Origin: Acidisarcina sp. | GTDB lineage: Bacteria; Acidobacteriota; Terriglobia; Terriglobales; Acidobacteriaceae | Length of the DNA stretch: 64,000 bases | NCBI GenBank assembly: GCA_035539175.1 | Contig: DATLIY010000008.1 | Coordinates: 434,001-498,000 of the forward strand | Reading direction: 5' to 3' | In this document: in pieces, positions 39,638 through 58,090 of the stretch | How the letters are laid out: each line of letters begins with the position of its first letter | Numbering within the stretch: the first letter of the stretch is position 1 | The notes under the pieces: generated by a model | The model's database searches: none | Told to the model about the DNA's origin: nothing | Seen by the model: only the letters and a program-made list of their open reading frames with translations | Made by a program: the position numbers and the translations under genes

Positions 39638-40936
39638 ATGGACAACCTACTGGAAACCAAAACCGACACTCAGGGTCAACCCAAGTCTTTCGCCTCATCG
39701 TCTGGTGAGATGTTCGAGGAATACTTTGTCCCTGGCAGAAGCTGGAGCTTCAAGAAGCATGACCTGCTCGATGCACGTGCTCGCAGGCTCTTCGAATCCA
39801 CCGCGCTCGGCTGCGCCGCGGATGCCTATCCCTTTCAGATTCCGCTGCAGAGCATGTCCGGGCCTATTGTTCAGGCAGATGGACATGAAATGCTCCTGCT
39901 GTCGTCTTACGACTATCTGGGGTTGATCGGCGATCCCCGGGTGAACAAGGCGGCCATCGATGCTGTGAATACCTATGGCACCGGCACCGGGGGAGCGCGA
40001 CTGCTCACCGGGACTTTGGATCTGCACCGCCAGCTTGAGAAGGAAGTCGCGGAGTTCAAGGGGACCGAGGCAGCCATTACCTTCAGTTCCGGCTACCTGG
40101 CCAACATCGCGGTAATTACCTCCCTCTTTGGCCCCGCGGATCGCGTGATCGCAGACGCCCTGTGCCACCGGAGCCTGATCGATGCCTGCCGGATGGCCGG
40201 CGTGCAGATTCAGCGCTTTCGTCATAACGACCCCGAGTCGCTGCGAAGCGAGATCCAGAATGGTTCTACGGCCAATCGGACGCTCATCATCTCCGATGGC
40301 GTGTTCTCCATGGATGGCGACATCTGCTGCCTGCCGGACCTGATCGCGATCAAGAAGGAATTCGGCTGTTTCCTGCTGATGGACGATTCGCATGCGACGG
40401 GCGTGCTTGGAACCCACGGCACCGGTACCGATGAGCACTTTGGCATTCCCGCCTCGGAGGTCGATCTCTGGACCGGGTCGCTGGCCAAGTCCATTCCTTC
40501 CAACGGCGGCTTTGTTGCGACCACGCAGGAGATGGCGATCTTTCTGCAGCATGCCGCAGCGCCGTTCATCTTTTCGGGATCGATTGCCGCTCCCGCAGTA
40601 GCTGCGGCACGCGCCGGGCTGGCTGCGATCAAGAGCGATCCGGAGCGGTTGGCACGCTTGAAGCACCATGCCAACTTCCTGCGCAGCGGGCTGCAGAGCC
40701 TGGGCTACAACACGGGACTGTCCGAGACTCCGATCATCCCCATCCTGCTGGAGGATGAAAGGGCCACAGCGCTGTTTGCGAGAAAGCTCAGGAATTACGG
40801 GATCCTCGCCAGCCCCGTCATGTTCCCCGCAGTAGCCCAGGGAACGGCGCGGCTTCGACTGTGCGTGACGGCGGCGCACACCCAGGAACACCTGGAGTTC
40901 GCGCTCGACGTCTTCCAGAAGATGCTGCAAAGCTGA
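39638..40936 (+). CDS. Alpha-oxoamine synthase family aminotransferase (serine palmitoyltransferase/KBL/BioF-like)
   Basis: A PLP enzyme of 432 residues that condenses an amino acid with an acyl thioester. After a 35-residue polar extension come LLSSYDYLGLIGDPRV, TYGTGTGGARLLTGTLDLHRQLE, AITFSSGYLANIAVI, ADALCHRSLIDACRMAG, SDGVFSMDGDICCLPDL, LLMDDSHATGVLG (Asp and His contacting PLP) and TGSLAKSIPSNGGFVAT with the Schiff-base Lys284. The family is certain. The choice between sphingoid-base synthase, 8-amino-7-oxononanoate synthase and others is not. No biotin or threonine-catabolism genes are near, while an ACP, a ketosynthase and an SDR are, which favours a long-chain acyl substrate. It is followed directly (2 bp) by the SDR. 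Confidence 0.85.
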   Translation: MDNLLETKTDTQGQPKSFASSSGEMFEEYFVPGRSWSFKKHDLLDARARRLFESTALGCAADAYPFQIPLQSMSGPIVQADGHEMLLLSSYDYLGLIGDPRVNKAAIDAVNTYGTGTGGARLLTGTLDLHRQLEKEVAEFKGTEAAITFSSGYLANIAVITSLFGPADRVIADALCHRSLIDACRMAGVQIQRFRHNDPESLRSEIQNGSTANRTLIISDGVFSMDGDICCLPDLIAIKKEFGCFLLMDDSHATGVLGTHGTGTDEHFGIPASEVDLWTGSLAKSIPSNGGFVATTQEMAIFLQHAAAPFIFSGSIAAPAVAAARAGLAAIKSDPERLARLKHHANFLRSGLQSLGYNTGLSETPIIPILLEDERATALFARKLRNYGILASPVMFPAVAQGTARLRLCVTAAHTQEHLEFALDVFQKMLQS

Positions 40937-40937
40937 T

Positions 40938-41927
40938 ATGTCCGTTTTCCTCACAGGGGCCAGCGGATTTCTGGGGGGGAGACTGGCCGAAGTGCTGGTT
41001 GCGCGAGGAGAGGAGGTAGTCGTCCTCGCTCGCGCCAGCGCCGACATGCGGCACCTCTCGCATCTCCCCCTCCGTATCGTTCGCGGAGATCTGGGCGACC
41101 TGCCCACCCTGCGGCAGGCGGTTCGCGACGCAAGCCAGATCTTCCATTGCGCCGCTTGCTCCACAGACTGGGCACCGCTAGACACCTACTACGCGGCGAA
41201 TGTAGCCGGCACGAAAAACCTGCTCCTGGCGGCGCGGGATGCTGCCAGCCTGCAGCGATTTGTGCACGTCAGCACCAGCGATATCTACGGCTATCCGCGC
41301 GTTCCGTGCGCAGAGTCGCAGCCGATGAAGAATATCGGGCTGCCCTACAACAGCACCAAGTGCCAGGGGGAAGTCGCCGTCTGGAACGAGCGCGAGCGGT
41401 CTGGCCTGCCCATCGTGATTCTTCGTCCCGCAACCATCTACGGGCCACGGGGCAAGGCGTTTGTCACGGATATCGCGGAGCTGCTGCAGCAGGGATGGAT
41501 GGCTACCATCGATTCCGGCAAAGCCCCCGGCGGATTTGCGTATGTCGATAACGTTGTCGATGCGATGCTCCAGGCAGCCACAGTTCCCGAGGCGGAGGGA
41601 GAAGCCTTTAACATCGCGGATGGGACCGGGGCCACCTGGGCGGACTATCTCTCTCTCTTCGCGGCAACCCTCGGCACCCGTCGACCGCGGATCAATCTCC
41701 CTTTCCGGGTTGCGATGTCAGTTGCCCGGGCAATGGAGTTTCCTTACACCCATTTGAGGTTTGGCGGACGGCCGTTGCTGACGCGTCACGCGGTCTATCT
41801 GCTGGGACTGAATCAGGAGTTTCCCGTAGAAAAAGCACGGCGTATCCTCGGCTTCTCTCCCAGAGTTGGCCTCGCAGAAGGAATCGACCGCTCCATCGCA
41901 TGGTTGAAGGCTTGCGGACAGGCCTAG
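40938..41927 (+). CDS. NAD-dependent epimerase/dehydratase family protein (extended SDR)
   Basis: A 329-residue extended SDR. It has TGASGFLGGRLAEVL for NAD(P) binding, VRGDLGDLPTLRQAV, FHCAACSTDW, VSTSDIYGYPRVPC, the catalytic YNSTK (Tyr137, Lys141) and RPATIYGPRGKAF. It starts 2 bp after the oxoamine synthase stop and is surely co-transcribed with it. In Caulobacter-type sphingolipid loci an SDR of this general kind (CerR) reduces the ceramide ketone next to serine palmitoyltransferase. A similar ketone reduction is inferred here. It ends 4 bp before the convergent ketosynthase gene. Confidence 0.82.
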   Translation: MSVFLTGASGFLGGRLAEVLVARGEEVVVLARASADMRHLSHLPLRIVRGDLGDLPTLRQAVRDASQIFHCAACSTDWAPLDTYYAANVAGTKNLLLAARDAASLQRFVHVSTSDIYGYPRVPCAESQPMKNIGLPYNSTKCQGEVAVWNERERSGLPIVILRPATIYGPRGKAFVTDIAELLQQGWMATIDSGKAPGGFAYVDNVVDAMLQAATVPEAEGEAFNIADGTGATWADYLSLFAATLGTRRPRINLPFRVAMSVARAMEFPYTHLRFGGRPLLTRHAVYLLGLNQEFPVEKARRILGFSPRVGLAEGIDRSIAWLKACGQA

Positions 41928-41931
41928 CAGC

Positions 41932-43155
41932 TCAGGCGTTTGGCAAAGCCTTGAAGGCCAACACTGCGTTCAACCCACCAAAGGCAAAGGAGTTAGAGAG
42001 GCAAGCTTCCACCGACACCCGGCGAGCCTGGTTGGGAATGACGTCAAGATCGCAGGCAGGATCCGGAGTGGTGTAGTTCATCGTCGGCGGCAGCACCCCA
42101 TGTTGCAGGGCGAGCACGCTGGCAACCGCTTCCAGAGCGCCCGCGGCGCCCAGCGTATGCCCATGCATGGACTTGGTGGAGCTGATGGCGAGGCGATCGG
42201 CGTGGCTGCCAAAGGCGGAACGAATCGCGGCAGTCTCCGTGCGGTCGTTCGCCTCCGTCCCGGTCCCATGCGCATTGATGTATCCGATCTGCTCCGGCGC
42301 CAGGCCAGCATCGCGCAACGCGGAACGTATCGCCAGCGCAGCCCCCTCCGAAGAGGGTTGCGTAATATGGCAGGCATCGGCTGACATTCCAAAACCGACG
42401 ATCTCCGCGAGCGGGCGAGCACCGCGCGCCAGAGCCGCCTCCAGCGGCTCCATCACCAGCATGGCGGCGCCTTCACCCAGAATCATTCCGCAGCGATCCG
42501 CGGAAAAGGGGCGGCAGGTGTCCTTGCTGATCACGCGCATCGCCTCCCAGGCCTTCAACGATCCCAGAAACAGGGGGGCTTCGCTTCCTCCGGCAATGGC
42601 CATTGGAGCCATTCCGGAACGAACCATCCAGAAAGCCTGCCCTATGGCGTGGGCCGATGAGGCGCATGCGGTCGAGACCGTATAGGCCGGTCCATGGATC
42701 CCATATTTCATGGAGATGTGGCTGGCACCGGCATTGCTCATGCCGAGGGGGATGGTCAGCGGGTGAACCCGCGATCTTCCGTGATGGAACAGCTCCCAGT
42801 AGCCAGCTTCCTCAGCAGCGCGGCCGCCCAGACAGGAGCCGGTGACAATCGCCGTGCGCTCCTGCAGATCCGGGGTCCACTCGATGCCCGACTGTGCCAC
42901 CGCTTCCCCGGCGGCAGTCAAGGCAAACTGCGCGAAGCGGTCCATGAAGGCCAGCTCCTTGGCTGAAAATTTCTCTTCGGGAACGAATCCGCGCACCTGG
43001 GCGGCGTACTTGAAGCGTACCTCTCCCCGTGTCGGGTCGATGCAGTCGATGGGGCTGATGCCGCTGCGCCCGCCCTCGAGTGCTGCCAGGAATTCCTGCT
43101 GGTTCCGTCCGATTCCGCAGATCGCACCAACGCCTGTGATGACCACCCGCTGCAT
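41932..43155 (-). CDS. Beta-ketoacyl-[acyl-carrier-protein] synthase family protein (FabF-like)
   Basis: A 407-residue condensing enzyme of the KAS II fold. It has VVITGVGAICGIG, the active-site STACASSAHA (Cys164), NAHGTGTEANDRTE (His296), STKSMHGHTLGAAGALE (Lys328, His333) and a terminal SNSFAFGGLNAVLAF. The triad is complete, so it should elongate an acyl chain and is not just a chain-length factor. It starts 1 bp after the ACP stop and must be coupled to it. It is distinct from a fab-operon FabF, given the setting beside an oxoamine synthase. Confidence 0.9.
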   Translation of the reverse strand: MQRVVITGVGAICGIGRNQQEFLAALEGGRSGISPIDCIDPTRGEVRFKYAAQVRGFVPEEKFSAKELAFMDRFAQFALTAAGEAVAQSGIEWTPDLQERTAIVTGSCLGGRAAEEAGYWELFHHGRSRVHPLTIPLGMSNAGASHISMKYGIHGPAYTVSTACASSAHAIGQAFWMVRSGMAPMAIAGGSEAPLFLGSLKAWEAMRVISKDTCRPFSADRCGMILGEGAAMLVMEPLEAALARGARPLAEIVGFGMSADACHITQPSSEGAALAIRSALRDAGLAPEQIGYINAHGTGTEANDRTETAAIRSAFGSHADRLAISSTKSMHGHTLGAAGALEAVASVLALQHGVLPPTMNYTTPDPACDLDVIPNQARRVSVEACLSNSFAFGGLNAVLAFKALPNA

Positions 43156-43156
43156 G

Positions 43157-43420
43157 TCAGCCTTCAGAAGAAGCCGCTTCCTTCGCCGCTAACAGGTGCG
43201 AAATCCCGGCAACCATCTCCCGAACGTTTGTAACCTGCTTCGCCTCCTCGTCATCGATCTCGATGTCGAACTCGCTCTCCAGATCAAACAGGATGTTCAG
43301 CCGGTCCAGAGAATCGATCCCCAGCTCTTCAAAGGTGCTCTCGGGTCGCACGTTCTCCAGTGGAATGCGACGGGTGGTTCCAATAACTCTTACGACTCGA
43401 TCCTAAACTGATTCGGACAT
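43157..43420 (-). pseudogene. Acyl carrier protein with in-frame amber codon at position 6
   Basis: The downstream 64 codons (GTG at 43351) encode helices II-IV of an ACP: STFEELGIDSLDRLN, with the phosphopantetheine Ser, then LFDLESEFDIEIDDEEA. Helix I is encoded in the same frame further upstream (DRVVRVIGTTRRIPLENV) and leads to ATG 43420 (MSESV), but TAG stands at 43405-43403. No ATG, GTG or TTG occurs between the TAG and helix II except GTG 43351. The gene may be broken, be read from a non-standard start, be suppressed, or carry a sequencing error (CAG to TAG). KAS follows 1 bp after its stop. Confidence 0.7.
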
Positions 43421-43560: not shown

Positions 43561-44754
43561 CTACTTCGTCTCGCGGAACTTTTCTACAGTCTGCGCGCCT
43601 TGTTTCTCGCGAGCTTCCTTGAGCTTCTGGTAAGCAGCCAGGGCCTTTTGCGCGTCCTGCGGCCGCTGTGCCTTGCGATACAGGCGGGCCAGGTTGTAGT
43701 AGGACTGCTCCACCATCTCACCGCTGGACTGCGGATTCGCCACCCTCTCAAAAGCTGCCATGGCATCCGCATCCCGGCCTGCGCTGGCCAGCGCTCGGCC
43801 CAGAAAATAATAGGCGTCCGTGCGAGTGGGATCGGCCTTCACCACCTCTTCCAGCATGGGAATCGCCTCCGCCGAATTGCCCCGTTCCACGCGAATGCTC
43901 GCAAGATTGAACATCGCTCCCACGTCGGACGGATCGAGCTTCAACTCTGCGGCGTAGGTCTGCTCCGCCAGGTCAAGCTGGCTGGATTTGTGGTACTCGA
44001 CGCCAAGATCTTCATATAAATCCCGCTGGTTCGGCTCGATCTGGATGGCTGCTTTGTACTCGGCAATCGCCTCCTTGTGCAGGCCATCTTCGGCATACAG
44101 ACGGGCACGAACGCGGTGAACCTGCCAGGAGTTTGGCGCCAGCTCGAACATTCTGGCGTAGGCCTTTTTCGCCACCAGCATGTGAGCCCGGCCAAGCATG
44201 TCCAGCAGTTCCAGGTCTTTGGGCGATAACTGGCTGGCGTGATCGAGCGGAGGGATGGCTTTTTCCGGCTCATCCATGGCGAGCGCGATTGTCCCGGCCA
44301 GCATCAGCGCTTCGGGGTTGTCCGGATTCAGCTTCAGCTCGTTGGCAACCGACTCCTGCGCCTTGTCGTATTGGTGAACTTCGAAATAGAGGATTCCGAG
44401 AAAAAGATTCGGCCCGGAGAGCGTGGGCTTCAACTGCAACGCCGTCTTCAGCGAAGAGACGGACTCCTCCAAGCGGCCTGCCCGCATCAGGGCGATGCCG
44501 AGGTTCATGTGCCCCTCGGCCAGCGACGGAGCAAGCCGGGTTACCTGGGTAAAGTCCTGCACCGCGTCCGGAGTGCGTCCCTGCTGTAAGGCCTGCAACC
44601 CGGCGTTCATCTTTGATTCGACCCGGGAATCGACGCGGGAATCCACATGGGCGTTCTGTGCGGGAAGCGGAAGACTGGCCGACAATCCTGCCAACAGCAG
44701 GAGAACAGCGAAAGAGGGGATCTTGAATCGGGCAGGGGTCATGGGAGGGGTCAT
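43561..44754 (-). CDS. Secreted or periplasmic TPR-repeat protein
   Basis: A protein of about 397 residues: a signal peptide (FAVLLLLAGLSASLPLPAQ), a short VDSRVDSRVESK repeat, then about nine TPR units (GHMNLGIALMRAGRLEESVSSLKTAL and GPNLFLGILYFEVHQYDKAQ are clear ones) up to a charged C-terminus rich in Lys and Glu. TPR arrays bind partner proteins. ATG 44754 was chosen with GGAG about 10 nt upstream; the frame runs back to 44892. It is divergent from the arabinofuranosidase gene. About 140 bp separate it from the downstream ACP gene on the same strand. Confidence 0.8.
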   Translation of the reverse strand: MTPPMTPARFKIPSFAVLLLLAGLSASLPLPAQNAHVDSRVDSRVESKMNAGLQALQQGRTPDAVQDFTQVTRLAPSLAEGHMNLGIALMRAGRLEESVSSLKTALQLKPTLSGPNLFLGILYFEVHQYDKAQESVANELKLNPDNPEALMLAGTIALAMDEPEKAIPPLDHASQLSPKDLELLDMLGRAHMLVAKKAYARMFELAPNSWQVHRVRARLYAEDGLHKEAIAEYKAAIQIEPNQRDLYEDLGVEYHKSSQLDLAEQTYAAELKLDPSDVGAMFNLASIRVERGNSAEAIPMLEEVVKADPTRTDAYYFLGRALASAGRDADAMAAFERVANPQSSGEMVEQSYYNLARLYRKAQRPQDAQKALAAYQKLKEAREKQGAQTVEKFRETK

Positions 44755-45017: not shown

Positions 45018-47084
45018 ATGGCGATCCGTACCCTGCTGAGAACCGCCCTGGCCCTCTCCACAATTCTGCCTGTTGCCACGGCAGCAGCTCATGCCCAAAT
45101 CACCGTAGACCAGGCGATTCCCTCTCTTGCCCGGATCCATGTGGACGCAGCGCACCCGGAGGAGCGCTCCATTCCGCGCACCATCTTCGGCACTTTTCTG
45201 GAGCCGATCGGCAACTCGACCTACAACGGCCTGTGGGCGGAGATTCTGGAGAATCCCAGCCTTGAAGCAGGGCTATGGAGCGCAGGCAACGTGCAGAACA
45301 TGCTGCACGAACGGCCGGAGCTGGTGCAATCGTCCCAGCTTGGCGCTCCGCTGCCGTGGGAGGTTCTGAACCCTGCGCAGGGGAATCGGTATGAGTATCG
45401 CTATGGTGATGCGGCCAACTCCTCGCGGTCTTTCCTCCTGATGGGCGTCCCCGGCCAGCAGACCGGGATTCAGCAGAGAGTCTATCTGCCCGTACATCGT
45501 GAGCTTGTCTACAAGGCCAGCGTCTATGCGCGGCACCTGGACGGAGCGCAGGGACTCTCGATCGAGCTGAAGAAGCGTGACTCCGGCGAAGTGCTGGCAG
45601 AGGCCACGGTGGCGACGATTGCCCCGGAGTGGACCAGGTATTCCGTGGAACTGAAGCTGAAGCCGGGAGCACTGGCTCCTCTCGATCCGGCGGATTTCGT
45701 GCTGGCGGTGAAGGACGATGCGCGCATCCTGATCGACCAGGCCTCGCTGCTGCCGGCGGATGCCATCGACGGCCTCGATCCCGACATGGTCCGCATGGTC
45801 AAGGATATGCATACACCGCTGATCCGCTATGGCGGCAACTTCACCTCGGGCTATCACTGGCGCGATGGCGTTGGCCCAATCGAGAAGCGGACGAGCATGC
45901 CCAATATTGCCTGGGGAATTCCCGAGTACAACACCTTTGGCACAGACGAATTCCTGCGCTTCTGCAAACTGGTCGATGCGGAGCCGCAGGTTGCGGTGAA
46001 TCTTGGCACGGGCACCGCCTCGGAAGCCGCCGAGTGGGTGAGTTACATCAACCAGCATTGGGGAGATCGGCGGGGAGGGCTGCTGTGGGAGCTGGGCAAT
46101 GAGCTATGGGGCAATTGGAACACCGGATGGCCAACGCTTGAGCAGTTGGCGCCGCGAACGAAGGCCTTCAGCGACGCGATTCGCCAGGTCGATCCCAAGG
46201 CGAGGCTGATCGCAACCGGTCAGGATCCGGATGCCTACCAGAAGTGGAACGCCGTGCAACTTACAAACCCTGCCGGCACAGAGGACTACCTCTCGACCCA
46301 CTTCGTGGTGACTACCGATCAGGTCAGGCTGAGCGATCCTTCACCGGAATTTCTCGCGCAGTCCTCCTTCGCCATGACCACCGAACTCGAACGCAGGCTA
46401 AAGGCGATGCAGGCGCAGATCGACGGCTCGCCCAGCAAAGACCACACCCGCATCGCATTCACGGAATGGCTCTGGGTCAGCGGCAATCGTCGTCCCTCGG
46501 CCAGATGGGACAACGTTGCCGGGGCAATCACCACTGGCGCGATGTACAACATGCTGCTGCGCTCCAGCGACCATGTGCCGGTCTCGGATATGACCGGCGT
46601 CATTGAGTTCGCGGGCATCTGGAAGAAGCGGGGACGCGTCTTCGGAACCCCGGCCTCGTATGTGTTTCAGATGTACTCGACGGCCGCTGCCGATCACCTG
46701 CTGCCTGCGACGACGGAGAGCGGCAGCTACAGCGTGCACCAGGGGATCACCCGCCTGCCGGAGATCGCCGATGTGCCGTATCTCGACGTCACCGCGACAA
46801 CGAGTGCAGACAGGAAGCATGTAACGCTCTTCGTCGTAAACCGTAGCCTGGAGCGGGATATCGCCACGGAGATTTCTCTGGCAGGCGCAAAGGTACAACC
46901 CAGCGCGGACACCCTGACGCTGCGCTCGGAGGATTTGTATGCCGTCAACAGTGAGATGGACCCGGAGGCTATTCTGCCGGAAAAGCACACGGCCAAAGTG
47001 GGGGAGAGCTTCCGCTACATCTTTCCGCGCGCCAGCGTAACCAGAATCTCGCTGACTACGATTTCCCCTGCCAAGAAGCCGTAG
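45018..47084 (+). CDS. Secreted alpha-L-arabinofuranosidase, GH51-like
   Basis: A 688-residue exported glycoside hydrolase. It has a signal peptide (MAIRTLLRTALALSTILPVA, cleavage after AAAHAQ), then IFGTFLEPIGNSTYNGLWAEILENP at the domain start. A carbohydrate-binding-like insert (LVYKASVYARHLDGAQG) follows, and then the barrel with RYGGNFTSGYHWRDGVGP, LLWELGNELWG (acid/base Glu362) and IAFTEWLWVSG (nucleophile Glu483). These catalytic motifs fit clan GH-A family 51. It should release arabinose from arabinan or arabinoxylan outside the inner membrane. The ATG at 45018 gives the signal peptide; upstream in-frame starts to 44925 do not. A TonB receptor lies 1.6 kb downstream. Confidence 0.86.
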   Translation: MAIRTLLRTALALSTILPVATAAAHAQITVDQAIPSLARIHVDAAHPEERSIPRTIFGTFLEPIGNSTYNGLWAEILENPSLEAGLWSAGNVQNMLHERPELVQSSQLGAPLPWEVLNPAQGNRYEYRYGDAANSSRSFLLMGVPGQQTGIQQRVYLPVHRELVYKASVYARHLDGAQGLSIELKKRDSGEVLAEATVATIAPEWTRYSVELKLKPGALAPLDPADFVLAVKDDARILIDQASLLPADAIDGLDPDMVRMVKDMHTPLIRYGGNFTSGYHWRDGVGPIEKRTSMPNIAWGIPEYNTFGTDEFLRFCKLVDAEPQVAVNLGTGTASEAAEWVSYINQHWGDRRGGLLWELGNELWGNWNTGWPTLEQLAPRTKAFSDAIRQVDPKARLIATGQDPDAYQKWNAVQLTNPAGTEDYLSTHFVVTTDQVRLSDPSPEFLAQSSFAMTTELERRLKAMQAQIDGSPSKDHTRIAFTEWLWVSGNRRPSARWDNVAGAITTGAMYNMLLRSSDHVPVSDMTGVIEFAGIWKKRGRVFGTPASYVFQMYSTAAADHLLPATTESGSYSVHQGITRLPEIADVPYLDVTATTSADRKHVTLFVVNRSLERDIATEISLAGAKVQPSADTLTLRSEDLYAVNSEMDPEAILPEKHTAKVGESFRYIFPRASVTRISLTTISPAKKP

Positions 47085-54585: not shown

Positions 54586-56151
54586 ATGCTCCATAGCTCT
54601 CAAGCAACGCTTTTCCTTGCCGAACTGAGGAAAACTGAAGTGGATCACACACCAATGCTTCCTGTCTTTGGGATTGATGTCGGGCGCATGACGCGTGATT
54701 TGGCTGCCTTGTTCCGCATTAGCAGTGTCATCAATTCCATCCGTGACCTTGATCTTCTACAACGCGAGCTCTTGCAGCTTATCTTCGAAGTCATCCCTGC
54801 CGAGCGCGGTGCTATAGTCTTGCGCCCCTATGGGAACGATGATCGGGTATCAGTCTGCACGTGGAGCCGCCCCCATGAAGACCAGCACCCCATCTCGGTC
54901 CAGCAGGATCTGGTTCGCAGGGCCTTGTGGGAGCGCACGCCCATACTCAGCAGCCCAGACTTAAACAACCCTGACTCAAACAACAGGGAGAGCGTACTCT
55001 GCCATCCCCTGGTGGGAGTGGAAAAGACGATCGGAGTCATCTATCTGGCTTCCTCTGAAGTCCCGTCCCCGTTCCGCGACGATCACGTGCACTTCGTCAG
55101 CGTGGCATCGCGAATCGCAGCGGTGACGCTGGAAAATATCCTCGCCTTGAATTCTCTCAGCGGCGATCAACCTCGATTGAAAGAGGCGCCCCATGCGGCC
55201 AGCAAGCTCGTCGGTGTGAGCCGCCAGATCGAGCAACTGCAGAGATTCATCTCGCGCGTCTCCCAGAGCGATTCCACGATATTGATACGCGGAGAAAGCG
55301 GCACCGGCAAAGAGCTGGTCGCCCGTGCCATCCACAACAAGAGTCCGCGGATGGATCGACCATTTGTCGCCATCAACTGTGCCGCAATTCCCGAGGCACT
55401 GCTGGAGAGTGAATTGTTCGGACACGAAAGGGGCGCGTTCACCGGAGCCGTCGGCGTAAAAATGGGGAGGCTCGAAGCGGCACAGGACGGAACCTTGTTC
55501 CTCGACGAGATTGGCGAGCTGGCCCCTTTGCTGCAGGCGAAGTTATTACGCGTACTACAGCAACGGGAGTTCGAGCGGCTGGGAGGAAATCGTTCCATCG
55601 CATTCAAGGCCCGTGTCGTCGCAGCCACCAATAAGAACCTTGAGGTTGCCATCAAGTCCGGAGAGTTTCGCCAGGACCTGTATTACCGGCTCAATGTCGT
55701 CTCGGTTACGGTGCCTCCTCTGCGCGAACGGCCCGAAGACATTTCGCTGCTTGCCCTATACTTCGCCGAAATTCATGCGGCCAAAAACAAGCGCCCCTTC
55801 AAAGGAATCTCGCAGGAAGCGCGCGCCATCCTGCTGCGGTATAGCTGGCCGGGGAATGTTCGCGAACTGGAGAGCGCAATCGAACATGCAATCGTGCTCG
55901 GTCTAACGGAGGAAATCCTTCCCGAGGATCTGCCGGACGCGATTCTGGAAGAACAGGCACTGGTACTGGCAAAAGATGCGCGGTATCACGACGCGCTCAA
56001 ACGAACAAAGAAAGACCTGGTGCTCAGCGCTATTCGCGATGCCAAAGGTAATTATCGCGAAGCCGCGCGGCTGTTGAGTATTCACCCCAAGTACCTGCAC
56101 AGGCTGGTACGAAATCTGGATCTGAAGTCTCACCTGCAGGAAGTTGAGTAG
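54586..56151 (+). CDS. Sigma-54-dependent transcriptional activator with GAF domain
   Basis: A 521-residue bacterial enhancer-binding protein. Residues of about 40-190 form a GAF sensor domain ([35 protein letters not shown]). The AAA+ domain has [15 protein letters not shown] (236-250), the sigma-54 contact motif GAFTGA (283-288), [11 protein letters not shown] and LRERPEDI. The C-terminus has a Fis-type helix-turn-helix ([20 protein letters not shown]). The architecture resembles FhlA/HyfR-type regulators with a single GAF domain. It lies upstream of a hyf-like operon on the same strand, which makes that operon a plausible target. The start at 54586 has GAAGG upstream. Confidence 0.92.
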
Positions 56152-56238: not shown

Positions 56239-57651
56239 CTAGATCTCGCAGCTGCTGGCGCGCTCCGGGCAAACGACGGGGATCGCAAATTCGCGAGTCA
56301 GCAGCTCCTCCAAAGCCTGCTGCGCCTTCGGCTCTCCATGGACGAGAAAGATCTTCTTCAGTGACTTTGCGATGGGGCGAACCCACTGGACCAGGTCGTG
56401 CTGATCGGCATGCCCGCTTAACTCGTCCAGCATAGCGACTTCGGCTCTCAGCGCATAAGGCTCTCCGAAGATGGGAACAGGACTCTGTCGCTCAGCAATG
56501 CGACGGCCCAAAGTGTGCTCCGCCTGATAACCGGCAAGCAGGATTAGATTCCTCGGGTCCTCAATACCGTTCTTAAGATGGTGAAGGACGCGGCCTCCCT
56601 CGCACATTCCCGCGGACGAGATCACGACGAAGGGCGTGCGCAGATCATTCAATGCCTTGCTCTCCTCCGCCGAACGCAAGTAGCGCAATCGCGCAAAACC
56701 AAATGGGTCTTTACCGTCTTTCAGGAACTGACTCGCTTCGTAGTCAAACTCCGCCGGATGCCGGCGAAAGATCTCCGTCACGTTCAACGCGAGTGGGCTA
56801 TCGACGAAGATCGGTATCTCCGGCAGCGACGACTCAACCATGAGTTGATGGAGGAGAAAGACAAGCTGCTGGGTTCTGCCCACGGCGAAGGCCGGGATGA
56901 TGACTCTGCCACCTCGCGCAATGGTCCGGCCAATGTATTCGGCGAGCTTCTCTTTCGCATTGGAAAGCGTGGGGTGCAGACGATCGCCATAGGTGCTCTC
57001 AAGGATGAGATAGTCGGCTGCAGGAGCCTGTTCCGGATTCCGCAGAATCGGAAGACCCTTCCTTCCCATATCACCGGAGAAAAGCACACGGCACGTTCTT
57101 CCGTTCTCGCGGAGTTCCAGTTGCACGAACGCGGACCCCAGCATGTGTCCGGCATTTCTCAGGGTAGTCGTGATGCCGGGAGCAACCTCCCGCTTTTGTC
57201 CGTACTTCAAGGGAGAGAACTGGCCCATGATCCGGGTCACATCCTCAAGGGTATACAGCGGCGGAACGGCATGAGCGCCCACTTCCATTCCAATATCTTT
57301 CCTGCGTTTCCAGCGACGCTCGATAAACGCCTGGTCGCGCTCCTGCAAGGATGCGCTATCCGCGAGCATGTATCTGCATAGATCGACAGTCGCTTCGCCG
57401 GTATAGATGGTTCCGCCAAATCCCTGCTTGCCGAGAGTGGGCAGATTTCCGCTGTGATCCACGTGGGCATGCGACAGAACTACCGCATGGATATCTTCCG
57501 GCTTAAAGGAGAAATGAGAGTTTCTTTCATACGTCGGCTGCCGCTTGCCTTGCAGCAAACCGCAATCCAGCAGGATGCGCGCCTGATTCGTCTGAACTTC
57601 ATGCATCGAACCGGTAACTTCCTGAGCAGCTCCCCAGAATATGATTCGCAT
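56239..57651 (-). CDS. MBL-fold RNA/DNA metallo-hydrolase with beta-CASP domain
   Basis: A 470-residue protein of the CPSF/RNase-J-like class. It begins MRIIFWGAAQEVTGSMH and has the zinc motif LSHAHVDHSG (His61, His63, Asp65, His66), FSGDMGRKG and LILESTYGDRLHP. The beta-CASP insert follows (GGRVIIPAFAVGRTQQLVFLL; ISSAGMCEGGRVLHHLKN), and then motif LDELSGHADQHDLVQWV and FLVHGEPKAQQAL. These are complete catalytic motifs, so it is probably an RNA endonuclease or exonuclease. It is divergent from the ArsR gene with 103 bp between starts, and convergent with the sigma-54 activator. Confidence 0.9.
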   Translation of the reverse strand: MRIIFWGAAQEVTGSMHEVQTNQARILLDCGLLQGKRQPTYERNSHFSFKPEDIHAVVLSHAHVDHSGNLPTLGKQGFGGTIYTGEATVDLCRYMLADSASLQERDQAFIERRWKRRKDIGMEVGAHAVPPLYTLEDVTRIMGQFSPLKYGQKREVAPGITTTLRNAGHMLGSAFVQLELRENGRTCRVLFSGDMGRKGLPILRNPEQAPAADYLILESTYGDRLHPTLSNAKEKLAEYIGRTIARGGRVIIPAFAVGRTQQLVFLLHQLMVESSLPEIPIFVDSPLALNVTEIFRRHPAEFDYEASQFLKDGKDPFGFARLRYLRSAEESKALNDLRTPFVVISSAGMCEGGRVLHHLKNGIEDPRNLILLAGYQAEHTLGRRIAERQSPVPIFGEPYALRAEVAMLDELSGHADQHDLVQWVRPIAKSLKKIFLVHGEPKAQQALEELLTREFAIPVVCPERASSCEI

Positions 57652-57754: not shown

Positions 57755-58090
57755 ATGTCTGAATTGAGCCAATTTAAGGCCGAGTTTTTCAAGGCCCTCT
57801 CCCACCCGCTGCGTATACGCATCCTGGATGAATTGCGGAATGGTGAGGCGGGCGTCAATGAACTCAGCTCTCGTTTAGACGTTGAACAGAGTACACTCTC
57901 CCAGCACCTTGCTCTCCTGAGAGCCCGCGACCTGGTGGTAGCGCGAAAGAACGGGCTTAACGTCTTCTACTCGGTCAGGGACAAAGATATCTTCCGCCTG
58001 CTCGATGTCGCCCGAAAGATCTTCAACACTCGTCTGGTGGGAGTGCGAAACATGCTGTCTCAGATGGAGACGACGAGCAAAGCCAAATAG
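57755..58090 (+). CDS. ArsR/SmtB-family transcriptional regulator
   Basis: A 111-residue winged-helix repressor: FKALSHPLRIRILDELRNGEAGVNELSSRLDVEQSTLSQHLALLRARDLVVARKNGLNVFYSV. The recognition helix is VEQSTLSQHLALLRAR. There are no cysteines, so the classical metal-binding ELCVCD motif is absent; sensing may use other residues or a different signal. It heads the block that leads to the hyf-like operon. The AT-rich motif CATATTTGTATATT overlaps its own start on the minus strand and has a near copy upstream of hyfB. Confidence 0.9.
   Translation: MSELSQFKAEFFKALSHPLRIRILDELRNGEAGVNELSSRLDVEQSTLSQHLALLRARDLVVARKNGLNVFYSVRDKDIFRLLDVARKIFNTRLVGVRNMLSQMETTSKAK

Follow-up and report, generated by a model that had tools for sequence, protein, structure and literature searches.

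In the nonsense pseudogenes of bacteria, a single-base change places a stop codon in an otherwise conserved gene. An amber codon within a frame can also be recoded, by a suppressor tRNA, as pyrrolysine or in codes where a stop has become a sense codon. Pairs of an acyl carrier protein (ACP) and a ketosynthase (KS) are represented by NodF and NodE of rhizobia. According to excerpts of PMC9386255, serine palmitoyltransferase of Rhodobacteria has an ACP dedicated to it, AcpR, and the ACP bundle has three major helices, of which helix I is one.

Here we describe an ACP gene with an in-frame TAG next to a FabF-like KS gene in Acidisarcina sp., a soil acidobacterium. The window, by which we mean the whole stretch of 64,000 nt that was analysed, covers positions 434,001-498,000 of contig DATLIY010000008.1, and the features discussed are collected in Table 1. 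The sister, which is the only other genome of the genus in the comparison, is the metagenome-assembled Acidobacteriaceae genome GL140_4_metabat_397 (GTDB 220). Its copy of the locus (L059) lies on a contig of 17,808 bases and encodes a KS that is 84% identical to that of the window. Read on the minus strand, the window has the ATG at 43420-43418, TCC GAA TCA GTT, the TAG at 43405-43403 and then GAT CGA GTC GTA AGA GTT ATT, and the frame encodes MSESV, the stop, DRVVRVIGTTRRIPLENVRPESTFEELGIDSLDRLNILFDLESEFDIEIDDEEAKQVTNVREMVAGISHLLAAKEAASSEG and a GIDSLD motif before closing with the TGA at 43159-43157. An amber codon at position 6 of an ACP frame that reaches back to an ATG is exactly what the original prediction had described at these coordinates.

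Downstream of the TAG, the frame matched PF00550 (phosphopantetheine attachment) at 43.4 bits (Pfam cut-off 20.8; 42.9 bits in the genome search), and the NCBIfam acyl carrier models listed all scored below their own cut-offs on the same fragment, for example 52.9 against 71. The serine of the DSL motif is present (GIDSLD), and I35, D36 and S37 are invariant across the ACP alignment (A1). The residues before the stop, MSESV, resemble the MSETV that opens the sister protein beyond chance, and the spacing of 4 bases between the AAGG site and the ATG is the same in both. Helix I spans residues 5-17 in a model of the sister ACP built on a 12-sequence alignment, with a mean pLDDT of 86. The TAG at residue 6 falls within this helix, and the window ACP would hence not form a complete helical bundle. 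With helix I placed in this way, a start at GTG 43351 would remove all of it, as had been anticipated for the next usable start codon.

Table 1. Features of the ACP-KS locus, with positions counted from the first base of the window
Feature	Position	Strand	Remarks
Alpha-oxoamine synthase family, BioF/Kbl/serine palmitoyltransferase-like	39638..40936	+	Below every NCBIfam cut-off listed
NAD-dependent epimerase/dehydratase-type reductase	40938..41927	+	Top NCBIfam match OleD, below its cut-off; stop codon is TAG
Ketosynthase (KS), FabF-like beta-ketoacyl-ACP synthase	41932..43155	-	Open frame, 407 aa; begins one base past the ACP TGA
Acyl carrier protein (ACP) gene, interrupted by TAG at codon 6	43157..43420	-	88 codons including stop; sister copy (L059) of same length, uninterrupted
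GTG, codon 24, first ordinary start after the TAG	43349..43351	-	Product would be a 64-aa ACP without helix I
In-frame TAG, codon 6, second residue of helix I	43403..43405	-	CAG in the sister species
ATG start with AAGG ribosome site 4 bases 5'	43418..43420	-	AAGG-ATG identical in the sister

The KS gene is open over all of its 407 codons and can be regarded as intact, as originally proposed. It had also been called coupled to the ACP; the two genes are indeed adjacent, with a one-base gap, but since the KS carries its own AAGG site at a spacing of 5, we take coupled to mean adjacent and not necessarily translationally coupled. For comparisons across the family, the KS as query found 416 relatives, of which the best 80 loci were kept, and tblastn placed an ACP beside the KS in 62 of these. 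The four-gene locus (39638-43420), in which the oxoamine synthase and reductase genes converge on the KS and ACP genes, is conserved in close Acidobacteriaceae. By tblastn, and with some contigs ending early, the oxoamine synthase was present at 17 of the 80 KS loci, every one of which falls within the set of 19 loci L020-L038, and the reductase at 16, of which 15 were within L020-L038 and one was the sister. The closest PDB structures to the oxoamine synthase are serine palmitoyltransferases, and it scored 338.1 bits (cut-off 640) and 310.9 bits (cut-off 500) on the NCBIfam models for these enzymes. PF00550 exceeded its cut-off five times in the genome, with two matches in short frames (the window ACP and a housekeeping ACP that adjoins a second KS) and the remaining three in frames of 867-1136 codons. 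Judged by its gene content, the relatives of the synthase and the presence of a second short-frame ACP, the locus resembles a pathway for lipids that has a carrier to itself, in the manner of AcpR. The pathway of AcpR also includes an epimerase-type reductase.

On the other side of the ACP, a TPR-repeat gene (43561-44751) is located between the ACP and a plus-strand gene at 45018-47084, and the sister locus gave no match to it at E values up to 10. The counterpart of the plus-strand gene in the sister is 83% identical and is separated from the start of the ACP there by about 0.5 kb. A box common to the window and the sister (GGGTAGAA), with look-alikes in some other relatives, was considered as a conserved promoter 5' of the ACP and rejected, the alignment being poor (40% mean column identity); no minus-strand promoter upstream of the ACP was identified by a promoter scan.

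The sister ACP reads MSETVQDRVVRVIGTTRRIPLENV... and is 93% identical to that of the window across the aligned 67 residues. We read the 30 best ACPs of the family base by base, placing codon 6 by its fixed distance from the DSL motif, and found CAA in 14, CAG in 11, GAA in 2, GAG in 2 and TAG in 1. Glutamine or glutamate is accordingly encoded in 29 of the 30, the sister among them, and the exception is the window. Given the majority of CAA and CAG, the ancestral codon was most likely a glutamine codon, from which a single transition yields TAG; the CAG in the sister supports the earlier suggestion that one CAG-to-TAG change would explain the stop. It had further been suggested that a sister genome with CAG at this codon would identify the TAG as an error, which is not a valid test because a sister species with CAG displays the ancestral state. 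The alignment proposed there did give CAG in the sister, and the same TAG was present at codon 6 in no relative examined. At the border of codons 5 and 6 the sister has GTC CAG and the window GTT TAG, that is CC versus TT, which makes a tandem change possible, codon 5 being unpolarised.

A wider search of 398 family genomes with an alignment of 20 ACPs yielded 107 matches in 95 genomes (E <= 1e-16), with the TAG of the window as the only internal stop. Five of the 107 were flagged with stops, and in each of the other four this was the terminal stop of the gene itself. Because the 107 matches include many less closely related ACPs, the set of 30 provides the closest comparison. The segment from the start codon through helix I is open in all 62 KS-linked ACPs (the 18 loci of the 80 where tblastn gave no ACP are not counted), and every relative examined, in this set and among the 30, starts upstream of helix I, mostly from the shared ATG or from a TTG or GTG immediately before it, and in a few cases further upstream. 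In several ACPs of the Granulicella type, the start is a TTG or GTG that directly precedes the position of the ATG in the window. In the ACP of Acidobacterium sp. S8 (L158 1501-1755; the same gene in L035), none of the codons ATG, GTG and TTG occurs shortly before helix I, and the nearest ones upstream are a TTG and a GTG located 18 and 20 codons before the codon-6 position, respectively. A TAG inside the KS of another relative (G035) was rejected as an interruption, being the terminal stop.

Divergence from the sister was used to estimate the selective constraints on the locus. The ACP yielded a dN of 0.037 and a dS of 1.11, corresponding to a dN/dS ratio of 0.033 (86 codons; 7 amino-acid-changing and 36 synonymous substitutions), and the ratios were 0.087 for the KS and 0.114 for the reductase (298 of 329 codons, the sister contig ending within the gene). 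The housekeeping ACP and the second KS of the same two genomes gave 0.027 and 0.039. The KS and reductase of the cluster are thus less constrained than the housekeeping pair, for the KS on both branches. Codons 7-23, from the TAG to the next GTG, differ by 9 synonymous substitutions and by no amino acid, which argues that helix I was translated and kept until recently. Amino-acid changes were near-evenly distributed over the two branches, with 4 on the window branch and 3 on the sister branch for the ACP, and 28 and 26 for the KS (10 unassigned), which argues against relaxation on the window side. The low dN/dS of the window ACP likewise shows no sign that selection was relaxed once the gene had been broken, as expected if the break is young. 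If all 4 changes on the window branch of the ACP are assigned to a neutral period, a Poisson bound caps this period at roughly 8% of the branch, an approximate value, since dS of about 1.1 is nearly saturated, the branch was taken as half of the distance and changes were polarised by the outgroup majority. Purifying selection in both ACP and KS that was undisturbed until very recently fits the option, raised in the original prediction, of a freshly broken ACP.

Our preferred explanation, to which we assign a probability of roughly two in three, is a very young single-base nonsense change on the window lineage that truncates the dedicated ACP of a small gene cluster. An ancestral glutamine codon would very recently have become TAG by one base change on this lineage, and translation from the old ATG would now end at codon 6, after five residues. 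Were translation to resume at GTG 43351, the resulting ACP would lack helix I. The KS would stay open and translatable from its own AAGG site, but in the absence of a matched carrier the pathway, probably that of a lipid-making cluster, would probably be off or weakly served by the housekeeping ACP. As in nonsense pseudogenes, the premature stop is missing from the orthologues (29 of 30 in the codon-6 set; 62 of 62 linked to a KS). The remaining genes of the cluster that were examined carry no second lesion, as would be expected of a young break but also of a base error.

Such an error in sequencing or assembly, with the gene intact in the organism, is the less likely of these two explanations, although it deserves to be taken seriously. 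Purifying selection on the rest of the ACP, the KS and the reductase, the open frames of the latter two and the CAG in the sister would all be expected of an intact gene, and an error in the single genome of a species would look identical to a real mutation. Against this, the assembly appears to be of good quality, with 13 contigs totalling 3.9 Mb, 99.96% completeness and 0.24% contamination, and real nonsense mutations in bacterial genomes are commoner than the stop-creating base errors of good assemblies. When the window was scanned for in-frame stops, two hits emerged (54759 and 57877), which also counts to some extent against an error, but the scan is a weak control since it needs 30 coding-like codons on both sides and is blind to a stop as early as codon 6. 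The hit at 54759 is antisense to a 521-aa ORF. The TAA at 57877, on the minus strand, has coding-like sequence on either side of it in its own frame and is located upstream of a 470-aa ORF (56239-57651), which we take to be metallo-beta-lactamase-like; it possibly marks a second interrupted frame or the border of two adjacent ORFs.

It is improbable that the ACP is still made, whether by amber readthrough or suppression or from a non-standard start after the TAG. The constraint on the helix I codons until recently and a TAAG stretch 4 bases 5' of ATT 43384 would be in keeping with continued synthesis. However, a search for ATG, GTG, TTG, CTG, ATT, ATC and ATA from the TAG up to the GTG gave only ATT 43384 (codon 13), ATT 43366 and CTG 43360 as start-like codons, and there is no in-frame ATG, GTG or TTG from the TAG to the end of helix I. 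ATT 43384 corresponds to residue 13, inside helix I, and ATT 43366, CTG 43360 and GTG 43351 are past it, so that every later start loses most or all of residues 5-17 and a working ACP from any of them is unlikely on the modelled structure. The unusual start codon that had been offered as an option is therefore unsupported, all relatives examined starting upstream of the helix.

Readthrough fares no better. None of the 49 tRNA matches in the genome has the anticodon CUA, although a very aberrant tRNA could escape a search with RF00005; ARAGORN gave names to 47 of these loci, and the remaining two, both degraded copies, have the loops CAU and CCU, as read by eye from the alignment. Release factor RF1 is present (534.6 against a cut-off of 423.25), and TAG is a normal stop that ends the reductase and TPR genes and 17 of the 41 long mechanical ORFs of the window. 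Together, these observations led us to reject readthrough under a changed code, and with the codon-6 TAG found in none of the relatives examined, we find no support for recoding. A regulatory variant, in which programmed or leaky readthrough or the post-stop ATT still supplies a working ACP and throttles the output of the cluster at the carrier, seems to us very improbable. An odd, short and weak-scoring tRNA at 143104-143175 of contig C8 (L152 75-146) has the anticodon UAG, for Leu CUA codons, and is no amber suppressor. Low-scoring tRNA-like remnants with shortened D arms at L155 77-143 (C13, loop CCU) and L153 72-140 (C9, loop CAU) may be integration-site leftovers. Finally, it is scarcely credible that the ACP frame died long ago or is there by chance. 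Nothing beyond the stop itself favours such a view, which is refuted by a dN/dS of 0.033 at a dS of 1.1 from the sister, and the 93% identity to the sister ACP over 67 residues also counts against it.

As a broken gene, the ACP carries little weight beyond annotation. Automatic gene callers would drop it or start it at GTG 43351, which would put an incorrect, shortened protein on record. Provided that the mutation is real, the strain represents a naturally occurring mutant without the carrier of an acidobacterial ACP-ketosynthase pathway, and the product of that pathway would be easier to identify if lipids were compared between the strain and a close relative. A search of the open-licence literature gave no paper that links Acidobacteria, sphingolipid, serine palmitoyltransferase and acyl carrier protein together, and in the excerpts of PMC11334938, on Black Sea sphingolipids, the word Acidobacteria occurs once, in the reference list. 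Judged by title and abstract opening, the same literature contained no paper on a premature stop in an ACP with a ketosynthase and, by title among the matches listed, none on an ACP pseudogene or nonsense mutation in Acidobacteria.

Compared with the known systems, the window shares with amber recoding an in-frame TAG within a conserved frame, and differs in that no CUA tRNA was found, RF1 is present and TAG is an ordinary stop that is not conserved at this site. With NodF and NodE it shares an accessory ACP adjoining a FabF-like KS. At the DNA level, the rhizobial matches among the 20 plasmid records listed of 87, one of them labelled hsnB, covered 34-39% of the query at 64-66% identity; the plasmid search gave partial KS matches only, the best of those listed being from Xanthomonas sacchari (45% coverage at 67.5%). 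As in the AcpR system (PMC9386255), a second small ACP adjoins a serine palmitoyltransferase-like enzyme, but the window ACP is paired with a FabF-like KS, the oxoamine synthase scores below the serine palmitoyltransferase cut-offs and no acyl-ACP synthetase such as AasR is among the seven window proteins scanned. The nonsense pseudogenes are the nearest match. The window ACP departs from them in having no visible relaxed selection or second lesion, and is not yet separable from a base error. The feature thus has the appearance of an ordinary one-base break of very recent date, or less probably of an error in base calling, and not of a new way of reading genes: as in the nonsense pseudogenes, one premature stop, absent in the relatives examined, lies a single transition (CAG to TAG) away from an open gene.
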